Source: a virus
Strand: one strand, 5' to 3'
Length of the DNA: 56,723 bases
Virus record (IMG/VR): IMGVR_UViG_3300010392_000751
Span: 1 to 56,723 of that record
In this document: positions 34,985 through 43,554 of the stretch, in pieces
Layout: every line of letters starts with the position of its first letter
Position numbering within the stretch: position 1 is the first letter of the stretch
The notes under the pieces: model-generated
What the model was told of the DNA's origin: nothing
The model's input: only the letters and a program-made list of their open reading frames with translations
Databases searched by the model: none
Made by a program: the position numbers and the translations under genes

Positions 34985-35198
34985 GTTGTAGTCCTCGCGT
35001 TTGTCGTTGTGGCTAACCGCTCCCGGTTGGCCGAAGGCCACCTTGCCCGGAAATCCTTTCCGCTGTCAACCCCTCGAGGCAAAAAGAGTTAAGATCGGCG
35101 CACCTACTAGCCTTCGGAGAGCGACCTTGCAGGCAACATCACCAAAGACCGTAAAGGATGCGCAGGTTTCTACTGCTGCTCCGAGAAGGTCAGGAGCC
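34985..35198. promoter_or_regulatory. Divergent control region between accessory and late blocks
   Basis: The accessory block starts leftward at 34984 and the terminase genes go rightward. On the minus strand a TTGACA lies near 35053-35058 but no good -10 follows at the usual distance. Hairpins AACCG-CTCC-CGGTT and GGCC-GAA-GGCC (about 35010-35040) and the inverted repeat GGAAA-TCC-TTTCC near 35044-35056 are present. On the plus strand TAAGAT near 35091 is a possible -10. No promoter is certain. Confidence 0.45.
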
Positions 35199-35735
35199 GT
35201 GACGATCTTCACTCCCGCTCTGTTCACCAGCATTTGCGACCGCATCAGTCAGGGCGAGTCCCTGAGGAGTGTTTGCCGGGACCCGGAAATGCCGCACAAG
35301 TCAACAGTGCTGCGATGGCTTCGGGAAAAGCCTGAGCTGAGAGACCAGTATTGCGCAGCGCGCGACGACCTGATGGAGTACTGGGCCTCGGACATCCTCG
35401 AGATTGCCGACGATGGCACGATGGACACCATGCCGGGGCTCAACAAGTACGGCGACGAGGTCATGGTGGCCAACCATGCGAACGTCCAGCGGGACAAGCT
35501 GCGCATCCATGCTCGCCAGTGGCTCCTCGGCAAACTGAAGCCCAAGGTCTACGGCGATCGGGTCGAGCTCGAGCATTCCGGCGAGGTCCTTCACACTGTA
35601 GACATCACCACGCTGTCGGCCCGAGAGAAGATGCGGCGCCTCGCTCTGTTCATGCTGGAGGACCGGGCGGCCGGCGAAGTCATAGACGGTGAATCGACTG
35701 TAATGACAGACAAGCCCGACGCTGCAAGTGACTGA
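35127..35735 (+). CDS. Terminase small subunit
   Basis: This protein is predicted to recognise phage DNA for packaging. The frame is open from 35001. Possible starts are a TTG at 35127 with GGAG at normal distance (202 residues) or a GTG at 35199 (178 residues). The core is typical of the small terminase group: TPALFTSICDRISQGESLRS ... MPHKSTVLRWLREKPELRDQ (an N-terminal helix-turn-helix), then ASDILEIADDG, and VQRDKLRIHARQWLLGKLKPKVYGDR. The large subunit follows four genes later, and several short genes lie between. Confidence 0.8.
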   Translation: MQATSPKTVKDAQVSTAAPRRSGAVTIFTPALFTSICDRISQGESLRSVCRDPEMPHKSTVLRWLREKPELRDQYCAARDDLMEYWASDILEIADDGTMDTMPGLNKYGDEVMVANHANVQRDKLRIHARQWLLGKLKPKVYGDRVELEHSGEVLHTVDITTLSAREKMRRLALFMLEDRAAGEVIDGESTVMTDKPDAASD

Positions 35736-36267: not shown

Positions 36268-36692
36268 GCCGGAAAAAGTTGAGCCTGCCGGCCAGAAGCG
36301 GTGCTGATGTGGTGGATGACTGGCCGCCGAACATCGAGGACATCCGGGCGGTGTTGCCGGTAACGGATCGGAATATCTTTGCTTACGGGCACACCATCTA
36401 CAATCCGGGCGGTGGTCGATTGCCGCTGGAGCTGATCGCGCATGAGGAGGTCCATTTTCAGCAGCAGGCCGAAGAGGGCCCGGTGAAGTGGTGGGCCAAG
36501 TTTTTAGCGGACCCAAAATTTCGGCTCGATCAGGAGATCCCGGCGCACCGTGTCGAGCATCGCGTGTTCTGCAAGTACAATCGGGATCGCAACGAGCAGG
36601 CGCAGCATTTGAGGCGACTGGGTCAGCGTCTTGCTGCGCCGATGTATGGTAGTTTGCTGACCGTGAATCAAGCGATGAAGGCAATCCGATGA
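36264..36692 (+). CDS. HExxH protein (zinc-metallopeptidase-like)
   Basis: This is a 142-residue protein. ELIAHEEVHFQQQ (H60-E61-x-x-H64) is an HExxH zinc motif followed by a charged helix. YGHTIYNPGGG lies just before it, as an active-site-leading strand would. About 25 residues on, DQEIPAHRVEHRVFCKYN could give a third ligand. The 97-residue protein at 50848-51141 has the same layout (FRHEMEHVYQVKRDGW ... YELEARDRE). These small domains resemble minimal gluzincin-like folds seen next to phage structural genes. The substrate is unknown and a purely structural role is possible. Confidence 0.65.
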   Translation: MSRKKLSLPARSGADVVDDWPPNIEDIRAVLPVTDRNIFAYGHTIYNPGGGRLPLELIAHEEVHFQQQAEEGPVKWWAKFLADPKFRLDQEIPAHRVEHRVFCKYNRDRNEQAQHLRRLGQRLAAPMYGSLLTVNQAMKAIR

Positions 36693-38335
36693 CGGCAGAA
36701 TCCGCTTTAATCAACGAGCTGGTCACAAAATACGACGCTTTGCCGCCTGAAAAGCAGGCCGAGATGGATGCGCTGGTGAAGGAGCGATCTGAGGGCCGGC
36801 TGTGGATGCCCACGCCAGGGCCGCAGTATGACGCGGTCAATTGTCAGGCTGATGTGCTGCTCTACGGTGGCTCGGGAGGATCCGGCAAAACCGACCTGAT
36901 TCTCGGGCTGGCCTTCACCGAGCACCAGAAAACGCTCATCATCCGAAAACATTACACCGATCTGACCGGCTTGACCGATCGCGCCAAGGAGATCAACGGC
37001 GGCGATAAGGGTTACAACGGATCCAAGCCACGACTGACCACAGCGGACGGTCGCATCATAGATTTTGGTGGTATCGCAAAACCGGGCGACGAGGATCACT
37101 GGCAGGGCCGCGCGCATGATCTTCTGGCGATTGACGAGGTGGTGCAGAATCGTGAGGCCGCGATTCGCTTTCTCATGGGTTGGGTGCGCTCAGCAGACGA
37201 GGGCCAGCGATGTCGCGTCATTCTGGCCTCGAATCCTCCGACCACATCAGCAGGCGACTGGATCATCCCGATGTTTGCGCCGTGGCTGGATAATCGCTAC
37301 GAGCGTCCCGCTGAGCCCGGTGAGCTCAGATGGGTGGTGACGCTGGTCGATGATTCGGGAAAATCTTTCGACTACTGGGTCGAGGGCCCGGATGTCAGAA
37401 TTCCATCAGGGAGAAACCACGATGACGGATCGCCTCGATACCTCAAGCCCGAGTCACGAACATTTATCCCAGGACGACTGGACGATAATCCGTTCCTTGC
37501 TGACGATGGCAAATACGCTGCCAAACTGGACGCACTCCAAGAGCCTTTGCGATCAGCTATCCGCGACGGCAATTTCATGGCTGCTCGACAAGACGAGCCC
37601 GATCAGCTTGTCCCTACCGATTGGGTCATTGCTGCGCAAAATCGCTGGCAGGCCGACTATTTCGGATCGCCTCCGCTTAATGTGCCTATGTGCGCTATCG
37701 GTGTTGATGGGGCGTCAAAACGCGACGAAGCGGTCCTCGCTCCTCGATACGATGGCTTCTACCCTGCTGTCATAGCGACACCGGGCAACGAGACTCCGCA
37801 CGGCCGCGATCTGGCCGCTCTGGTGCTGAAACATCGCAAGCACTCCGCGATCCCGGTGATTGACTGCGGCGAGCGCACTGGCGCCGAGGCGTATGCGCAT
37901 CTCGAGGAAAATGGCGTCGACTGTATGCGTCACGTTGGCATGGATAAATCGAACGCCAGAACCAAGACCAAGCAGCTCAAATTCTTCAACAAGCGCGCCG
38001 AGGTCTACTGGAAATTCATGGAGGCGCTGGACCCGGAGCAGGACGGTGGATCCCCGATCGCGCTGCCTGACGATCCTATGCTGAAAGCGGATCTCACCAT
38101 CCTGACATGGGAGCTGACGCCGAACGGCATCAAGGTGATGAGCAAAAAAGACGCGGTCGCGATACTGGGCCGCTCCCCCGATCGCGGCGATGCCGTGGTG
38201 CAGGCGTGGAGCTCTGGTCCTCGAGCGGTCACGCATCTGCATGAGTGGCGAAAAGATCAGCTTGCGGGTACGATGCTCGGCAACGTCAATCGACGGCCGT
38301 CTGTCAATCTGGGACCAAGGAGAAGGAACCGATGA
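36689..38335 (+). CDS. Terminase large subunit
   Basis: This 548-residue DNA-packaging motor has an ATPase domain with Walker A GGSGGSGKT (residues 60-68), Walker B LLAIDE (145-150) and the coupling motif ASNPP (180-184). The C-terminal RNase H-like nuclease domain shows IGVDGASKRDE with D340, then VIDCGERTG with D392, and the closing GRSPDRGDAVVQAW. The start overlaps the HExxH gene. It works with the portal encoded two genes downstream to fill the head. Length and motifs fit the family. Confidence 0.95.
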   Translation: MTAESALINELVTKYDALPPEKQAEMDALVKERSEGRLWMPTPGPQYDAVNCQADVLLYGGSGGSGKTDLILGLAFTEHQKTLIIRKHYTDLTGLTDRAKEINGGDKGYNGSKPRLTTADGRIIDFGGIAKPGDEDHWQGRAHDLLAIDEVVQNREAAIRFLMGWVRSADEGQRCRVILASNPPTTSAGDWIIPMFAPWLDNRYERPAEPGELRWVVTLVDDSGKSFDYWVEGPDVRIPSGRNHDDGSPRYLKPESRTFIPGRLDDNPFLADDGKYAAKLDALQEPLRSAIRDGNFMAARQDEPDQLVPTDWVIAAQNRWQADYFGSPPLNVPMCAIGVDGASKRDEAVLAPRYDGFYPAVIATPGNETPHGRDLAALVLKHRKHSAIPVIDCGERTGAEAYAHLEENGVDCMRHVGMDKSNARTKTKQLKFFNKRAEVYWKFMEALDPEQDGGSPIALPDDPMLKADLTILTWELTPNGIKVMSKKDAVAILGRSPDRGDAVVQAWSSGPRAVTHLHEWRKDQLAGTMLGNVNRRPSVNLGPRRRNR

Positions 38336-38574
38336 GTGGATTGAAAAACACCAGCAAGCGAATTATGAATGCGTCTGTTGGCAGGGGCTACATGACCAAC
38401 GAGGAACGGCGCCAAAAGAAAAAAGGCAAGATCAAAAAGGCCAAGGATAAAATGTTCCAATCCGCAGCACTCCCAGACGAGGAAGAGATCCGGCTGGTTG
38501 AGCGCAGGAAAGCGGCCAAGCGCCGCGGCTCCCGCGCCCAGACAGTGTTGACAGATCTCGATACCCTGGGCTGA
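38332..38574 (+). CDS. Small basic protein after TerL
   Basis: This is an 80-residue protein, extremely Lys/Arg-rich (RRQKKKGKIKKAKDKMFQSA, RKAAKRRGSRAQ), with AAGGAG upstream of the ATG at 38332. It overlaps TerL by 4 bases and the next gene by one base. Several similar small basic proteins lie between the head genes. They may be head-interior, DNA-condensing or ejected proteins. Confidence 0.6.
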   Translation: MSGLKNTSKRIMNASVGRGYMTNEERRQKKKGKIKKAKDKMFQSAALPDEEEIRLVERRKAAKRRGSRAQTVLTDLDTLG

Positions 38575-38720
38575 TGGGCGCGCTCGAGACCACGGTCGGC
38601 GGTGTTGGCTACAGCCATTACCGTGAGAACAAAAAGCGCAAGGCCAAGAAGCTAACCAAAGAACAACGCAAGGGCCAAGAAATCATCAGCGCCCTGACTC
38701 CCAAGAAGAAAGCAGCATGA
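38574..38720 (+). CDS. Tiny basic protein before portal
   Basis: This is a 48-residue protein with a Gly/Tyr-containing start (MGALETTVGGVGYSHYREN) and a Lys-rich tail (KKRKAKKLTKEQRKGQE, ALTPKKKAA). The ATG overlaps the previous stop and its stop overlaps the portal ATG. Context suggests a minor head protein. Confidence 0.55.
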   Translation: MGALETTVGGVGYSHYRENKKRKAKKLTKEQRKGQEIISALTPKKKAA

Positions 38721-40366
38721 AGCCAAGAGATCTCATAATCCGCGGCTCGCAGCTCTACAACGATCGCAAGGCCATGACGACGCTCTGGCAGGAGATCGCT
38801 GAGAACTTCTATCCGCAACGAGCGGACTTTACTCTGACGCGCTACATCGGGGAGGAGTTCGCGGAGCACCTGTATTCGAGTTATCCGATCATCGTGCATC
38901 GCGAGCTCTCTACCTCGTTGGCCTCGATGCTCAGGCCGCGCGCAAAAGACTGGTTCGAGATCTCGGTCGACGCGGTCGAGGATCTGACTCACGAAGGCAA
39001 GGCGTGGCTCGAGTGGGCCACCAAGCGCCAGCGGTGGGCGATGTACGATCGCAATGCGCAGATGGTCCGCGCCACTACCGAGGGCGATGCGGATTTCGCC
39101 GCCTTCGGCCAGTGCTGCATCTCACAAGAGATCAACTGGAACATGCAAAACCCGCACCTGTTGTATCGGTGCTGGCATCTTCGCGATGTCGCATGGGCTG
39201 AGAACGAGACCGGCGCGATCGGTGAGATCTACGTGAAGTGGAAGCCGACCGTGAAGCAGCTCGTCCAGATGTTCGGGCAGGACGCTTTGCACCAGAACGT
39301 CGCCCGGTGGGCCAACGATCTGCAGAATCTCCAGAAAATCGACTGCATGAGGTTGGTCGTATCGACCGACATCTATCAGGGCCAAGAAGGTCAGGGCGAG
39401 TCTTTCCCATGGATGATCGTGTATCTGGACACGCTCAACAATCACATCATGTCGGAGCACCCGGCTACCAATCGCGGTTTCACCCTTCCGCGGTGGCAGA
39501 CCGTGTCGGGCTCCCAATATGCGTATAGCCCTGCCACTGTCGCAGGACTTCCCGACGCGCGTTTGCTACAGGCCATGAGCCTGACTCTGCTCGAGGCCGG
39601 CGAGATGTCTGTCAGACCGCCGATGATCGCGACTCAGGACGCAGTCCGATCCGACATCGCGCTGTTTGCTGGCGGCATCACCTGGGCCGACCATGAGTAC
39701 GATGAGCGCAAGGGCGATGTGCTGCGGCCGATCAATCAGGATCGCCGCGGGTTGCCGATGGGCTACGATTCTCGGGATTCGCAGATGGGCCTGATTGCCG
39801 ATGCGTTTTTCATCAACAAACTTACATTGCCGCCCCCTGAGGGCGACATGACCGCCTTCGAGGTGGGTCAGCGCGTAGAAGAGTACGTCAGGGCAGCCCT
39901 ACCACTATTCGAGCCGATGGAGCATGAATACAACGGCCAACTTTGCGAGGATACCTTTGATCTTCTACTGCGCGCTGGCACCTTCGGATCCGTCCAAGAC
40001 ATGCCGCGCGAGCTGCAGGGCCGCGAGATCCACTTCAAATTCGTGAGCCCGTTGCACGACGCGATCGAACGCAAGCAGACCGCCGTGTTCATGGAGACCC
40101 GCGAGCTGCTGGCCTCTGCGATGGAACTGGATCCAAGCGCCGCCTACAACGTCGATCTCACTGGTACGCTGCGCGATGCCCTCGAGGGTGTCGGGTTGCC
40201 GACCAAGAACATGGTGCCGCTCGAGGAGGTCAATCGTCAGGTTGCCGAAGCACAAGAGATGGCCGCCATGCAGCAGGAAGCCGAGCTCGCCCGTACTGGC
40301 GCCGAAGCCGCCCGAGACATGGGTCAGGCCGAGGCCAATATGGCGCAGGCCGCTAATGCCGCATGA
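38717..40366 (+). CDS. Portal (head-to-tail connector) protein
   Basis: This 549-residue protein is predicted to form the dodecameric ring through which DNA enters and leaves. The N terminus RDLIIRGSQLYNDRKAMTTLWQEIAENFYPQ is the form seen in podovirus portals of the BPP-1/Bcep22 type. The middle has mixed alpha/beta segments, and the C terminus ends in Ala/Gln/Glu helices (about residues 500-549) that would make the barrel or crown. It lies directly after TerL and two small genes, followed by the Bbp19-like protein and scaffold. Confidence 0.85.
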   Translation: MKPRDLIIRGSQLYNDRKAMTTLWQEIAENFYPQRADFTLTRYIGEEFAEHLYSSYPIIVHRELSTSLASMLRPRAKDWFEISVDAVEDLTHEGKAWLEWATKRQRWAMYDRNAQMVRATTEGDADFAAFGQCCISQEINWNMQNPHLLYRCWHLRDVAWAENETGAIGEIYVKWKPTVKQLVQMFGQDALHQNVARWANDLQNLQKIDCMRLVVSTDIYQGQEGQGESFPWMIVYLDTLNNHIMSEHPATNRGFTLPRWQTVSGSQYAYSPATVAGLPDARLLQAMSLTLLEAGEMSVRPPMIATQDAVRSDIALFAGGITWADHEYDERKGDVLRPINQDRRGLPMGYDSRDSQMGLIADAFFINKLTLPPPEGDMTAFEVGQRVEEYVRAALPLFEPMEHEYNGQLCEDTFDLLLRAGTFGSVQDMPRELQGREIHFKFVSPLHDAIERKQTAVFMETRELLASAMELDPSAAYNVDLTGTLRDALEGVGLPTKNMVPLEEVNRQVAEAQEMAAMQQEAELARTGAEAARDMGQAEANMAQAANAA

Positions 40367-40686
40367 CCGAGCAGAAGGACAGAGTCGAGGAGTGTTTGCC
40401 GCATGAGAATCCGATTGAGAGACCGGATTACACGGAGTTCGAGGCCCAAGCTATCCGGGCCCTGTTCGACGGCAACGCATCGGAGCGGCAGCAAAAAGCT
40501 ATACTGCCGTACATCATCCGGGCTGCTGGCACTCACGACCTGAGCTACCGGCCCGGAGATCCACACGCCACGGCGTTTGCAGAAGGCAAGAGATTCGTAG
40601 GAACCACTTTGGTATGGATGCTAAAGTCGGCCCCAACAAGGACAGACCCCGACAAAATAGCAGCGAGAGAGATTGAAGATGGCTGA
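40363..40686 (+). CDS. Bbp19-like protein
   Basis: This is a 107-residue protein starting at an ATGA overlap with the portal. The pattern FEAQAIRALFDGNASERQQKAILPYIIRAAG, then SYRPGDPHATAFAEGKRFVGTTL, matches the small phage family named after Bordetella phage BPP-1 Bbp19, found next to portal genes. Its role is not established. It supports the BPP-1-like affiliation of the head module. Confidence 0.7.
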   Translation: MTEQKDRVEECLPHENPIERPDYTEFEAQAIRALFDGNASERQQKAILPYIIRAAGTHDLSYRPGDPHATAFAEGKRFVGTTLVWMLKSAPTRTDPDKIAAREIEDG

Positions 40687-41626
40687 AACAGACCCGATCA
40701 CAAATCCGATTACCGATCCCGGTGAGCCTGACTGGTTCAAAGACATGGTCACTGACGACACGCCACCTGAGCGCGTCGAGTTCCTCAAGAGTTTCGATAC
40801 CCAGGAGGCGCTATTCGAGTCGGCCCAGACCGCTCAGAATGCCAACTGGCGTGACGCCTTTGCCGGCGATGACGAAAAATTCAAGAGCCAGCTCGAGCGA
40901 TACAACACGCCTGCAGATCTGGGCAACGCCTTTCGCGAGCAACGCGCCACGATCTCTGGTGGCAATCTCAAGACTGGACTGGCCGAAGGCGCGACCGAGG
41001 ACGACATCAAGGCCTATCGCGAGACCAACGGCATCCCGCTGGAGTCCGATGGCTACCTCGAGAACCTGCCCGAGGGGCTGGTCCTGGGCGAGGATGACAA
41101 GGAGATCTTTGCGGACTTCGCTGGCGCGATGCACGAAATGAACGTCGAGCCGGCCGTCATGCACAAGGTCATCGACTGGTACAACGGCTTTGCTGAGGAC
41201 CAGCAGGACACGCTGGCAGAGATCGACCATAGCCACCATCAGGAAACCGAGGATGCGCTCCGCACCGAATGGGGCACTGACTACCGGGCCAACATCAATC
41301 TGGTTGGCAGCCTGATCGAGTCCACCTTTGGCGAAGAGAACGCCAATGCTCTGCTGAACGCTCGCGATGCTGAAGGCCGCGCGATTATGAACATTCCCGG
41401 CGTCCTCGAGGGCCTCGCGAATCTGTCACGCAAGATCAACCCGGTGGCGCAACTGGCGCCGAAATCCGGCCGCACTCCCGATCAGACGCTCGAAGATGAG
41501 ATTGGTGAAATCGAGAAGTACATGAAGGAAGATCGGGCCAAGTACAACAAGGACGAGAAGGCTCAGGCCAGACTGCGGGAGCTCTACCAGATCCGCATTG
41601 ACCATGAGGCTCGCAAAACAGCGTAA
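40679..41626 (+). CDS. Capsid scaffolding protein
   Basis: This is a 315-residue acidic protein between the portal and capsid genes. It is mainly helical with a flexible, acidic N terminus (DPITNPITDPGEPDWFKDMV) and a charged helical C terminus (LEDEIGEIEKYMKEDRAKYN ... LRELYQIRIDH) of the sort that binds coat protein. Podovirus scaffolds have this length and composition. It would guide procapsid assembly and be lost on maturation. Confidence 0.75.
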   Translation: MAETDPITNPITDPGEPDWFKDMVTDDTPPERVEFLKSFDTQEALFESAQTAQNANWRDAFAGDDEKFKSQLERYNTPADLGNAFREQRATISGGNLKTGLAEGATEDDIKAYRETNGIPLESDGYLENLPEGLVLGEDDKEIFADFAGAMHEMNVEPAVMHKVIDWYNGFAEDQQDTLAEIDHSHHQETEDALRTEWGTDYRANINLVGSLIESTFGEENANALLNARDAEGRAIMNIPGVLEGLANLSRKINPVAQLAPKSGRTPDQTLEDEIGEIEKYMKEDRAKYNKDEKAQARLRELYQIRIDHEARKTA

Positions 41627-41635
41627 GGAAACGCC

Positions 41636-41740
41636 ATGTCTATGCCACTTCAGCCAGATGAAGTAATCAACACCGGCATCGAGCCCGGTGACACAACCGC
41701 CGAGGCTACGCAGCCCGGTGACAACATCGACGCGGTGTAG
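41636..41740 (+). CDS. Tiny acidic protein
   Basis: This is a 34-residue protein with a short GIEPGDTTAEATQPGDNIDA repeat (two PGD units). AAGGAA lies at the right distance from the ATG. It is acidic, unlike its basic neighbours. A minor head or tail-fibre-like capsid peptide is possible; no family was recognised. Confidence 0.45.
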   Translation: MSMPLQPDEVINTGIEPGDTTAEATQPGDNIDAV

Positions 41741-41742
41741 TC

Positions 41743-41931
41743 GTGGGTAGCAAAAAGAAAAAAGCCAAGGGCCCCAAGGGTGCGGCAGCTTGGATCGCTG
41801 AAAGAGAAGGTCGCGGCCTGTCGACGGTCATGGATGACGTCAAGAAAACGGTCGCACAACGGACTAAGCGGACCTCCGGCAAACTTCACAGGGTTAGGTC
41901 GCCGGTCCAAGACGAGACAAGGAGCTACTGA
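41743..41931 (+). CDS. Small basic protein in head region
   Basis: This is a 62-residue protein with a GTG start. It is Lys-rich at the N terminus (GSKKKKAKGPKGAAAWIAE) and basic again at the end. It overlaps the next ATG by one base. It is one of a series of small basic proteins between scaffold and capsid. Function is unknown. Confidence 0.55.
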   Translation: MGSKKKKAKGPKGAAAWIAEREGRGLSTVMDDVKKTVAQRTKRTSGKLHRVRSPVQDETRSY

Positions 41932-42137
41932 TGGGCGCAATCAAGAAAATGTTTAACAAGATCCGCGGCAAAAAGACGCGCCCCGGTGGCGAGGAGCGAA
42001 TGGGATCGCAGTACATTACCGGCATCGCTCCGGGCGACAGGGGCTCGAATACTGGCGGTGGCGGCGGTGGCCGCAATCGACGTCCTGGCCGACGCAATGC
42101 TGACACGCCACTTGGTCCCGGCCGGCAGAGAATGTAA
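41931..42137 (+). CDS. Small basic Gly/Arg-rich protein in head region
   Basis: This is a 68-residue protein with a Lys/Arg-rich N terminus (AIKKMFNKIRGKKTRPGG), a Gly-rich linker (NTGGGGGGRNRRPGRRN) and a short tail. A disordered nucleic-acid-binding protein is likely. It overlaps both neighbours by one base. Confidence 0.55.
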   Translation: MGAIKKMFNKIRGKKTRPGGEERMGSQYITGIAPGDRGSNTGGGGGGRNRRPGRRNADTPLGPGRQRM

Positions 42138-42301
42138 TGGCTGAGACTGCTCCGGTGACGAGCTACGCTGGCGCCAAGAAAAAGCGCCATCCAGCCAGCT
42201 ATCGGAAACCGCCAGCCAAGACGGTGTTCAAGAAAAAGAAGGCCACCACTGGTGGCACGAAGCACTCAGGCTCGATCAACACCAGCTCAGGAGGAGCGTG
42301 A
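42137..42301 (+). CDS. Small basic protein in head region
   Basis: This is a 54-residue Lys/Ser/Thr-rich protein (AGAKKKRHPASYRKPPAKT, then FKKKKATTGGTKHSGS). It is probably unstructured. Starts and stops overlap the adjacent genes by one base (TAATG and TGATG). Function is unknown. Confidence 0.55.
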   Translation: MAETAPVTSYAGAKKKRHPASYRKPPAKTVFKKKKATTGGTKHSGSINTSSGGA

Positions 42302-42534
42302 TGGGTAAGCTCGGAGATATGTTCAAGGGCAGCCAGAAAGTCAACATTGGCAACCCGCTCGCGATGCGGTGGGGTTGGGGCCAGTATGACGCTAATCGGC
42401 CGAGTCCATTTGCAGCCCTGAACAAGCAGTCACGCAAGAAGATGACGGCACAGCAAAGGACCGATTACCTCGCCAGAGAGGAGTCCAAGGGCGAGGGTCA
42501 CGTTCGCACACCGTTGACATCTCGCTACTCGTAG
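42301..42534 (+). CDS. Small unknown protein before capsid
   Basis: This is a 77-residue basic protein starting at 42301 behind AGGAG. Aromatic and Asn-rich segments (NPLAMRWGWGQYDANRPS) are followed by a basic helix (KQSRKKMTAQQRTDYLAREE). Its last codons contain the -35 box of the capsid promoter. No family was recognised. Confidence 0.55.
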   Translation: MGKLGDMFKGSQKVNIGNPLAMRWGWGQYDANRPSPFAALNKQSRKKMTAQQRTDYLAREESKGEGHVRTPLTSRYS

Positions 42535-42543
42535 GACTATATT
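42514..42543 (+). promoter_or_regulatory. Sigma70 promoter for the capsid gene
   Basis: A perfect TTGACA at 42514-42519 and TATATT at 42538-42543 (five of six) are separated by 18 bases. The start would be near 42550. It lies at the 3' end of the preceding gene and drives the major capsid protein, which must be made in large amounts. Confidence 0.75.
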
Positions 42544-42549
42544 CAGCCC

Positions 42550-42705
42550 CACGACATTAGTCAGACACCCCGCTTGCGGCCCTGACGCTCTCCGGCTCCT
42601 GATGCCGACCTTTGCGGCCCCGCTCTGGACACCCCGCAAACCAGCTAATCAGGCTACCCCGACCAGTCGATAGATGGAACTATTCACTTATCTGGGAGAA
42701 GCCAA
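42550..42705 (+). promoter_or_regulatory. Long untranslated leader of the capsid gene
   Basis: About 155 bases lie between the promoter and the capsid ATG. They are C-rich, with four CCCCG motifs (two inside ACACCCCGC), and contain small inverted repeats, for example CGGC-TCCTGAT-GCCG and CTGG/CCAG. GGGAG precedes the ATG by 8 bases. No open frame of note and no tRNA were found. It may fold to stabilise the message or control capsid translation. Confidence 0.45.
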
Positions 42706-43554
42706 ATGGCTGAAACAGCGTTTCAAATTCAATACCGGCAGGAATTCATCGCCGCGTTTGAGCAGCACCAGTCGCTCCTTCGGGAGAGCACGACCACGGA
42801 AGCTGTCATCAAAGGCAATCAGGCGACGTTTCTCGTAGCTGGTTCTGGCGGCGCGACCGCCAAGACACGCGGCGTGAATGGGTTGATCCCCGCTCGCGGC
42901 GACGATCTCCAGCAGCCTGTTGCTACGCTGGTCGAATGGCATGATTTGGTCCGCAAGACGGATTTCAATATCTTCGCATCGCAGGGCAACCAGCGCGCGA
43001 TCATGCAAATGACCTGCATGGCAGTCATCAATCGCAAGATTGACCAGGACATCATTGGCGAGCTGGCCACTGGCACGATCAACACTGGCGCAGCAGCCGC
43101 TCCGACGCTGAACCTCTGCCTCGAGGCTAAGACTCGCCTCGGTCAGGCCGATGTTCCGTATGACGGCCGCATCACCATGCTGGTCACGCCGAACTTTGAA
43201 GGCGTCATGCTCACGCTGGCATCCTTCACATCTCGCGACTTCACGCAAAACGGCCCGATCGACAATGTGCCGCAGGCGTGGCGCGACCGTCAACAGACGT
43301 ACAAGTGGCTCGGAATGAACTGGATCGTGCATCCAGATCTGCCGGGTAACGCGACGGCTGACGGTGACTGTTTCGCGTACCACCAGAATGCTATCGGCCA
43401 TGCGTACAACGCCGATAACATGGAGGCGCGCGCGGGGTATGACGAGGAGCAGGACTATTCGTGGTCTCGCTGCTCGATCTACATGGGCTCACAACTGCTG
43501 CAGAACAGTGGCGTCGTCGTCGTGAACGTAATCGACAACACGCTAATTGTCTAA
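42706..43554 (+). CDS. Major capsid protein
   Basis: This is a 282-residue protein. Its place after the scaffold, its own strong promoter, and the terminator after the following small gene mark it as the highly expressed coat protein. The sequence alternates alpha and beta with an early acidic/Gln helix (YRQEFIAAFEQHQSLLRES) and the DADG-type loops of HK97-fold coats of BPP-1-like podoviruses. No delta-domain or cleavage site is evident, since a separate scaffold exists. Confidence 0.8.
   Translation: MAETAFQIQYRQEFIAAFEQHQSLLRESTTTEAVIKGNQATFLVAGSGGATAKTRGVNGLIPARGDDLQQPVATLVEWHDLVRKTDFNIFASQGNQRAIMQMTCMAVINRKIDQDIIGELATGTINTGAAAAPTLNLCLEAKTRLGQADVPYDGRITMLVTPNFEGVMLTLASFTSRDFTQNGPIDNVPQAWRDRQQTYKWLGMNWIVHPDLPGNATADGDCFAYHQNAIGHAYNADNMEARAGYDEEQDYSWSRCSIYMGSQLLQNSGVVVVNVIDNTLIV

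Follow-up and report, generated by a model that had tools for sequence, protein, structure and literature searches.

Introduction

Small basic proteins have been placed inside the virion in a few phages. In T7, twelve copies of gp6.7 are bound to the portal barrel and six C-terminal loops of gp7.3 (residues 84-98) are anchored to the nozzle, with the positively charged N-terminus of gp7.3 encircling the DNA end (PMC11784390). The internal proteins of T4 are small, basic and poorly conserved, with unlike bodies, and about 360 copies of each enter the head by way of a common 10-residue targeting peptide (PMC9026906). For Peru-2, a preprint describes a small virion protein of low abundance, encoded at the gene position that b1 (see below) occupies in the virus studied here (PMC13320782). 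Our search of the literature for comparable small basic head proteins in podoviruses found nothing beyond T7, Peru-2 and T4.

The window, by which we mean the whole stretch of DNA that was analysed, is a 56.7-kb virus record with a G+C content of 59.7%, and the phage is a T7-type podovirus. At the DNA level, no relatives were found among named phages. Its capsid family and head gene order are those of the podoviruses with a PF19821 (Phage_capsid_2) capsid protein, among them Pelagibacter phage EXVC031P Hodr; in Hodr, however, the space between the scaffold-like gene and the capsid gene holds a single 191-aa gene and nothing comparable to the basic cluster. The reading that we favour for the small basic proteins of the window, with a probability of about one half, is that they are head-internal tether or cargo proteins in which a terminal peptide would dock while the basic body meets DNA, b1 in a T7-like and b3-b6 in a T4-like manner.

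Small basic genes among the head genes

The head module and the small genes within it are laid out as follows.

35001-35735, terminase small subunit (phrog_1482)
36689-38335, TerL
38332..38574, plus strand, b1: 80 aa, pI 10.6, between TerL and portal
38574..38720, plus strand, b2: 48 aa, pI 10.3, Lys 21%, filling the slot between b1 and portal
38717-40366, portal (PF12236)
40673-41626, scaffold, acidic, net charge -32 (phrog_3742)
41637..41741, plus strand, acidic QPGD-repeat ORF: 34 aa, pI ~4.1, family FAM2
41743..41931, plus strand, b3: 62 aa, GTG start, pI 10.8, MGxKKKxKGPKGAAAY... with a ...RSY tail
41931..42137, plus strand, b4: 68 aa, pI 11.9, Arg/Gly-rich, TPLGPGRQRM tail
42137..42301, plus strand, b5: 54 aa, pI 10.7, Lys-rich, MAETAPVTSY N-terminus and C-terminal TGGTKH module
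42301..42534, plus strand, b6: 77 aa, pI 10.3, TPLTSRYS tail
42535-42705, plus strand, conserved structured RNA element between b6 and the capsid gene
42706-43554, major capsid protein (PF19821, phrog_3437)
44474 and 45122, tail tubes A and B
48294, internal virion protein (phrog_418)

The preliminary description had listed six tiny basic ORFs, tightly overlapping and lying among the head genes; we recovered all six at the same coordinates, with pI values of 10.3-11.9 and linked by ATGA, TGATG or TAATG start-stop overlaps. Shine-Dalgarno sites precede several of the starts. The acidic 34-aa ORF that begins the second basic group was absent from that list, and between the portal gene and this group there are only g107 and the gene for the acidic scaffold. 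The shell, portal and scaffold proteins are acidic, whereas the bodies of the b-proteins are basic.

Like gp6.7 and gp7.3 of T7, b1 and the putative b2 are small basic proteins encoded upstream of the portal, and the T7 proteins, which are basic, mostly unresolved chains, are also similar in size (88-99 aa). Comparison with gp6.7 and gp7.3 by hhalign nevertheless gave no match above 25% probability, and in T7 the scaffold (gene 9) and capsid (gene 10) are not separated by genes of this sort. The likeness to IPI-IPIII of T4 is of another sort: the b-proteins are small, basic and poorly conserved, and their divergent bodies carry a common short terminal peptide. The T4 tags, however, are N-terminal capsid targeting sequences and are removed by the prohead protease gp21, whereas the main tag here is C-terminal with no protease evident; only b5 has an N-terminal, capsid-like tag. 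No sequence homology of b3-b6 to the T4 internal proteins was detected with PHROG or Pfam. Judged by sequence, b1-b6 are thus not members of the T7 or T4 families, and what we claim is that they may work like them.

The small reading frames are under purifying selection

A high pI was discarded as evidence, being uninformative in a G+C-rich genome: 188 of the 312 window ORFs of 45-110 aa have a pI above 10, a point in favour of b1-b6 being spurious ORFs arising from G+C-rich sequence. Lysine content was used instead. Just five of the 312 combine at least 12% Lys with a pI above 10, and four of these five are b1, b2, b3 and b5.

Relatives were collected through the capsid protein, which gave 80 IMG/VR loci (62-100% identity), and two more scans with distant members brought the set to 118 non-redundant loci. 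Related capsid modules are also present in bacterial assemblies (L189-L194), namely two from Mesorhizobium (L191 and L194), Rhodospirillales and Acidithiobacillales MAGs, an Asaia MAG and a Serratia assembly contig; these modules hint at alphaproteobacterial hosts.

Conservation of the reading frames in relatives had been named in the preliminary description as a test, and across the 118 loci it held for b1 and b3-b6, which supports them as real, translated genes. Pooled over relatives, pN/pS in the called frame was 0.44 for b1, 0.43 for b3, 0.49 for b4, 0.41 for b5 with its related proteins and 0.55 for b6, against 0.94-1.41 in the two shifted frames; the values are rough, with non-independent pairs and synonymous sites near saturation, but the contrast between frames is clear. 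Distinct orthologues numbered 14 for b3, 37 for b4 and 13 for b6. The acidic FAM2 peptides behaved likewise (0.38 versus 1.51 and 1.09 in the shifted frames). ORFs of four further families from distant relatives were discarded: FAM7 and FAM10 had in-frame pN/pS above 1, and FAM5 and FAM11 were unsupported. The frames of b1, b3, b4, b5 and b6 are under purifying selection in relatives. This frame-specific selection, together with lysine richness, Shine-Dalgarno sites and exact start-stop overlaps, refutes the spurious-ORF explanation for these five, which we regard as genuine late morphogenesis genes. The status of b2 is putative because the sole other locus found to carry it, L003, does not differ from the window anywhere in the set and does not count as an independent relative.

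b1 is a core gene of the TerL-portal interval

A b1-type protein was present in all 55 loci having both TerL and portal (52 by pattern, and three distant ones with the same tail farther from the end), which makes b1 a core gene. What follows b1, by comparison, varies: the slot before the portal is usually empty, is filled by b2 in the window, and in L044, L050 and L059 holds an acidic protein of 113-114 aa.

The tail of b1 (...RAQTVLTDLDTLG), in the form ...QTVLTDLDTLG, fits the pattern S/T-T-I/V/M-L-T-[GD] ending in LG or LLG. Although window b1 had no direct PHROG match, distant b1-type members matched phrog_831 at E ~1e-3, and a b1 profile matched phrog_831-like tails (Prob 86%, E 5e-6) over just 13 columns. 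The partners in the profile match come from HTVC010P, Vibrio phage MZH0603 and Pseudomonas phage UFJF_PfDIW6 and occupy the same gene position; bbp22 of BPP-1 has the position and, by eye, the tail of b1. These matches suggest that b1 is related to the small TerL-portal proteins of pelagiphages and, probably, to the phrog_831-like protein of BPP-1. T7, pelagiphages, BPP-1, UFJF_PfDIW6 and MZH0603 also encode a small protein immediately before the portal, and that part of the cluster is common, not unusual in podoviruses as had been supposed. The AlphaFold model of b1 has three loose helices (pLDDT 70, pTM 0.33) and is not plain disorder. No convincing match was found when the TerL-portal proteins were compared with solved structures.

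b3-b6 form a variable group between the scaffold and capsid genes

The b3-b6-type group is missing from 43 of 94 scaffold-capsid intervals, and the others hold one to six such genes; the group is therefore dispensable in those 43 relatives. It matched no Pfam or PHROG family, and the b5 family was found only in this lineage. Where the capsid protein is 96-99% identical, b3-b6 are only 38-89% identical. Among 11 close relatives, the median identity to the window was 98% for capsid, 86% for portal and 80% for scaffold, and 57%, 52%, 81% and 41% for b3, b4, b5 and b6, respectively. This variable multi-gene basic cluster is the part of the locus that is unusual, and to that extent the original impression was borne out.

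The gene after the capsid gene, g92, ranges from 37 to 96% identity among close relatives whose capsid proteins are 96-99% identical. The acidic QPGD peptide is fused to a further domain of ~150 residues at L014:6394-6930 and L017:3697-4245. Among IMG/VR contigs of this lineage of at least 50 kb, those with the group (53.5-58.1 kb, n=8) were longer than those without it (51.2-56.0 kb, n=9; Mann-Whitney p 6e-4), a comparison confounded by ancestry and contig completeness.

This distribution bears on two alternative functions. The first is that the proteins are assembly factors only, which attach to the acidic scaffold or to the capsid protein while the procapsid is built and are absent from the mature virion. 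Genes that are translationally coupled and lie between scaffold and capsid, next to a scaffold of net charge -32, would suit such a role; because 43 of 94 relatives have related scaffold and capsid genes but no basic group, we consider it quite unlikely. The second is that they are head cargo which is injected, as T4 IPI is, and serves mainly in the new host, for takeover or against defence systems. Fast turnover and the variation in gene content among close relatives would fit this explanation, as would the fact that the T4 internal proteins are likewise small, basic and poorly conserved (PMC9026906). The b-proteins, however, are low-complexity chains with no recognised effector domain and no match in phage family libraries, and b1, present throughout and evolving more slowly, does not resemble a gene in an arms race, which makes this explanation improbable as well.

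Unrelated bodies share terminal peptides

Despite their unrelated bodies, b1, b4 and b6 have in common a C-terminal [ST]-[PVI]-[LM]-[STG] tag. The tag occurs in the last 14 aa of 31/37 b4-type, 13/13 b6-type, 5/6 FAM9 and 29/49 b1-type proteins, the last figure rising to 46/49 with a looser pattern in the last 27 aa, as against a background of 79/8641 ORFs and near zero in shuffles. Within the window, eight of 505 ORFs carry it in their last 16 residues, three of them being b1, b4 and b6; the pattern was set after the sequences had been viewed, and the binomial value of 4e-5 is illustrative. The strict form is absent from b3 and b5 of the window, and the FAM2 acidic peptides lack the tag. A matching tail on the terminase small subunit was not conserved in relatives and was attributed to chance.

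The codons of the tag vary synonymously, and selection therefore acts on the protein. This variation also rules out the tag being a by-product of the Shine-Dalgarno site of the next gene, as does the fact that b6 has no adjoining downstream gene and that b1 tails lack such a site. Overlap of tail and Shine-Dalgarno site was seen only for the ...RSY ends of b3 and FAM9.

A second terminal peptide resembles the start of the capsid protein. The N-terminus of b5 (MAETAPVTSY) is like that of the capsid protein (MAETAFQIQY), and the likeness is seen across relatives: b5-type proteins start with MAETAP..xY, FAM8 with MAETSFQTHYR and the capsid protein, in most relatives, with MAETAFQIQYR. FAM8 and the capsid start have 25/33 nt in common, their synonymous codons differ and the DNA upstream is unrelated; profiles of the two N-termini matched with Prob 76% and E 2e-5. 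In the capsid protein as modelled by AlphaFold (pLDDT 79.5, with HK97-type matches in the PDB), this stretch forms the first helix, residues 2-20.

Such mimicry could mean that b3-b6 are staples of the capsid lattice, binding the shell from inside or outside at many sites and stabilising it, with no DNA contact, and that b5 imitates the N-terminal arm of the capsid protein. That the termini of b5 and FAM8 copy a conserved helix of the capsid protein favours this explanation, as does the adjacency of the b3-b6 genes to the capsid gene. Lattice binding alone, however, needs no strong positive charge, and the bodies are all strongly basic although the shell, portal and scaffold are acidic; moreover, the capsid protein is nearly invariant among close relatives while b3-b6 are highly variable. 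Known decoration proteins are mostly folded domains, which also counts against staples. We therefore regard this explanation as unlikely.

The terminal peptides also recur in new combinations. In L036, a b4-type protein begins with the N-terminus of b1 (69/81 nt identical), and a minidomain MPFKK...SPSGRKFTKKQV is joined variously to an MSETA head, a TGGTKH tail or a TPLSSRHA tail. Modules are exchanged between genes. The minidomain itself (MPFKKxGxxxYxSPSGRxFTKKQVxxYYATxGF, strongly basic and 35-60 aa long) turns up in a large number of unrelated phage contigs (L202-L269; for example L225:4804-4917, L228:5266-5424 and L258:6001-6156), at several sites beside portal or scaffold-like genes; it has no Pfam or PHROG family and no match among named phages.

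The preliminary description had also suggested that the small proteins are peptides cleaved during maturation. This part found no support: a scan of the head genes with Pfam and PHROG gave no convincing peptidase match, with no Pfam peptidase found and only a weak match (E 0.024) between the scaffold and a PHROG that is labelled protease. In the predicted structure, moreover, the capsid protein has no pro-domain and opens with its N-terminal helix.

A structured RNA element upstream of the capsid gene

Between b6 and the capsid gene lie strongly conserved, covarying hairpins with repeated GCCC / YAACC internal-loop strands. The structure comprises 22 pairs with 95% of cells paired and 44 double changes, compared with 12 in shuffles and 1-8 when the structure was slid by one to three columns. 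A covariance model (R1) matched 38/77 sources at E <1e-9 and 11 more weakly; throughout the lineage the matches immediately precede the capsid gene, and they fade in distant members. No match to Rfam was found.

Because this element adjoins the cluster, one could envision that the small proteins are Arg/Lys-rich RNA-binding peptides that act on it, for instance, and tune capsid synthesis. The element is also present in relatives without the basic group, such as L057 and L067; therefore, it belongs to the capsid gene and not to the small proteins, and we consider the RNA-binding explanation very improbable. The element is possibly a leader of the capsid gene.

Discussion

We return to the favoured explanation, that b1-b6 are tether or cargo proteins inside the head. 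Each would be a basic chain, short and largely without structure, whose conserved terminal peptide would dock on a component of the shell, portal or tail while the procapsid assembles; the Lys/Arg-rich body would then lie against the packaged DNA and leave with it or before it. The behaviour of T7 gp7.3 and gp6.7 and the logic of the T4 tags led us to this proposal. The product of b1, whose gene lies beside the portal, may be a conserved portal- or tail-proximal tether working like gp7.3 or gp6.7, and b3-b6 may be interchangeable head cargo like the T4 internal proteins, with variable basic bodies and common short tags. The preliminary suggestion of DNA-binding, packaged head proteins is plausible in view of gene position, charge, common terminal peptides and analogy. 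The docking partner, packaging, DNA contact and ejection are points that we infer, DNA contact from charge.

A more far-reaching version of the tether and cargo proposal is a modular code for loading cargo, in which a few docking peptides are recombined onto ever-changing basic bodies and minidomains, each phage having its own tethered set. The candidate docking peptides would be the [ST]-[PV]-[LM]-[SG] tail, the capsid-mimicking MAETA..xxxY head and the TGGTKH tail. We consider such a code doubtful.

Structural proteins of very small size frequently escape annotation, proteomics and cryo-EM. If the proposal is true, it would provide a role to test for many unannotated TerL-portal proteins. 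If the tags are docking signals, they would supply a testable rule for entry into the podovirus head and a means by which proteins could be loaded into phage particles, and they would represent a second instance of the T4 targeting-sequence logic, outside the T4-like phages.
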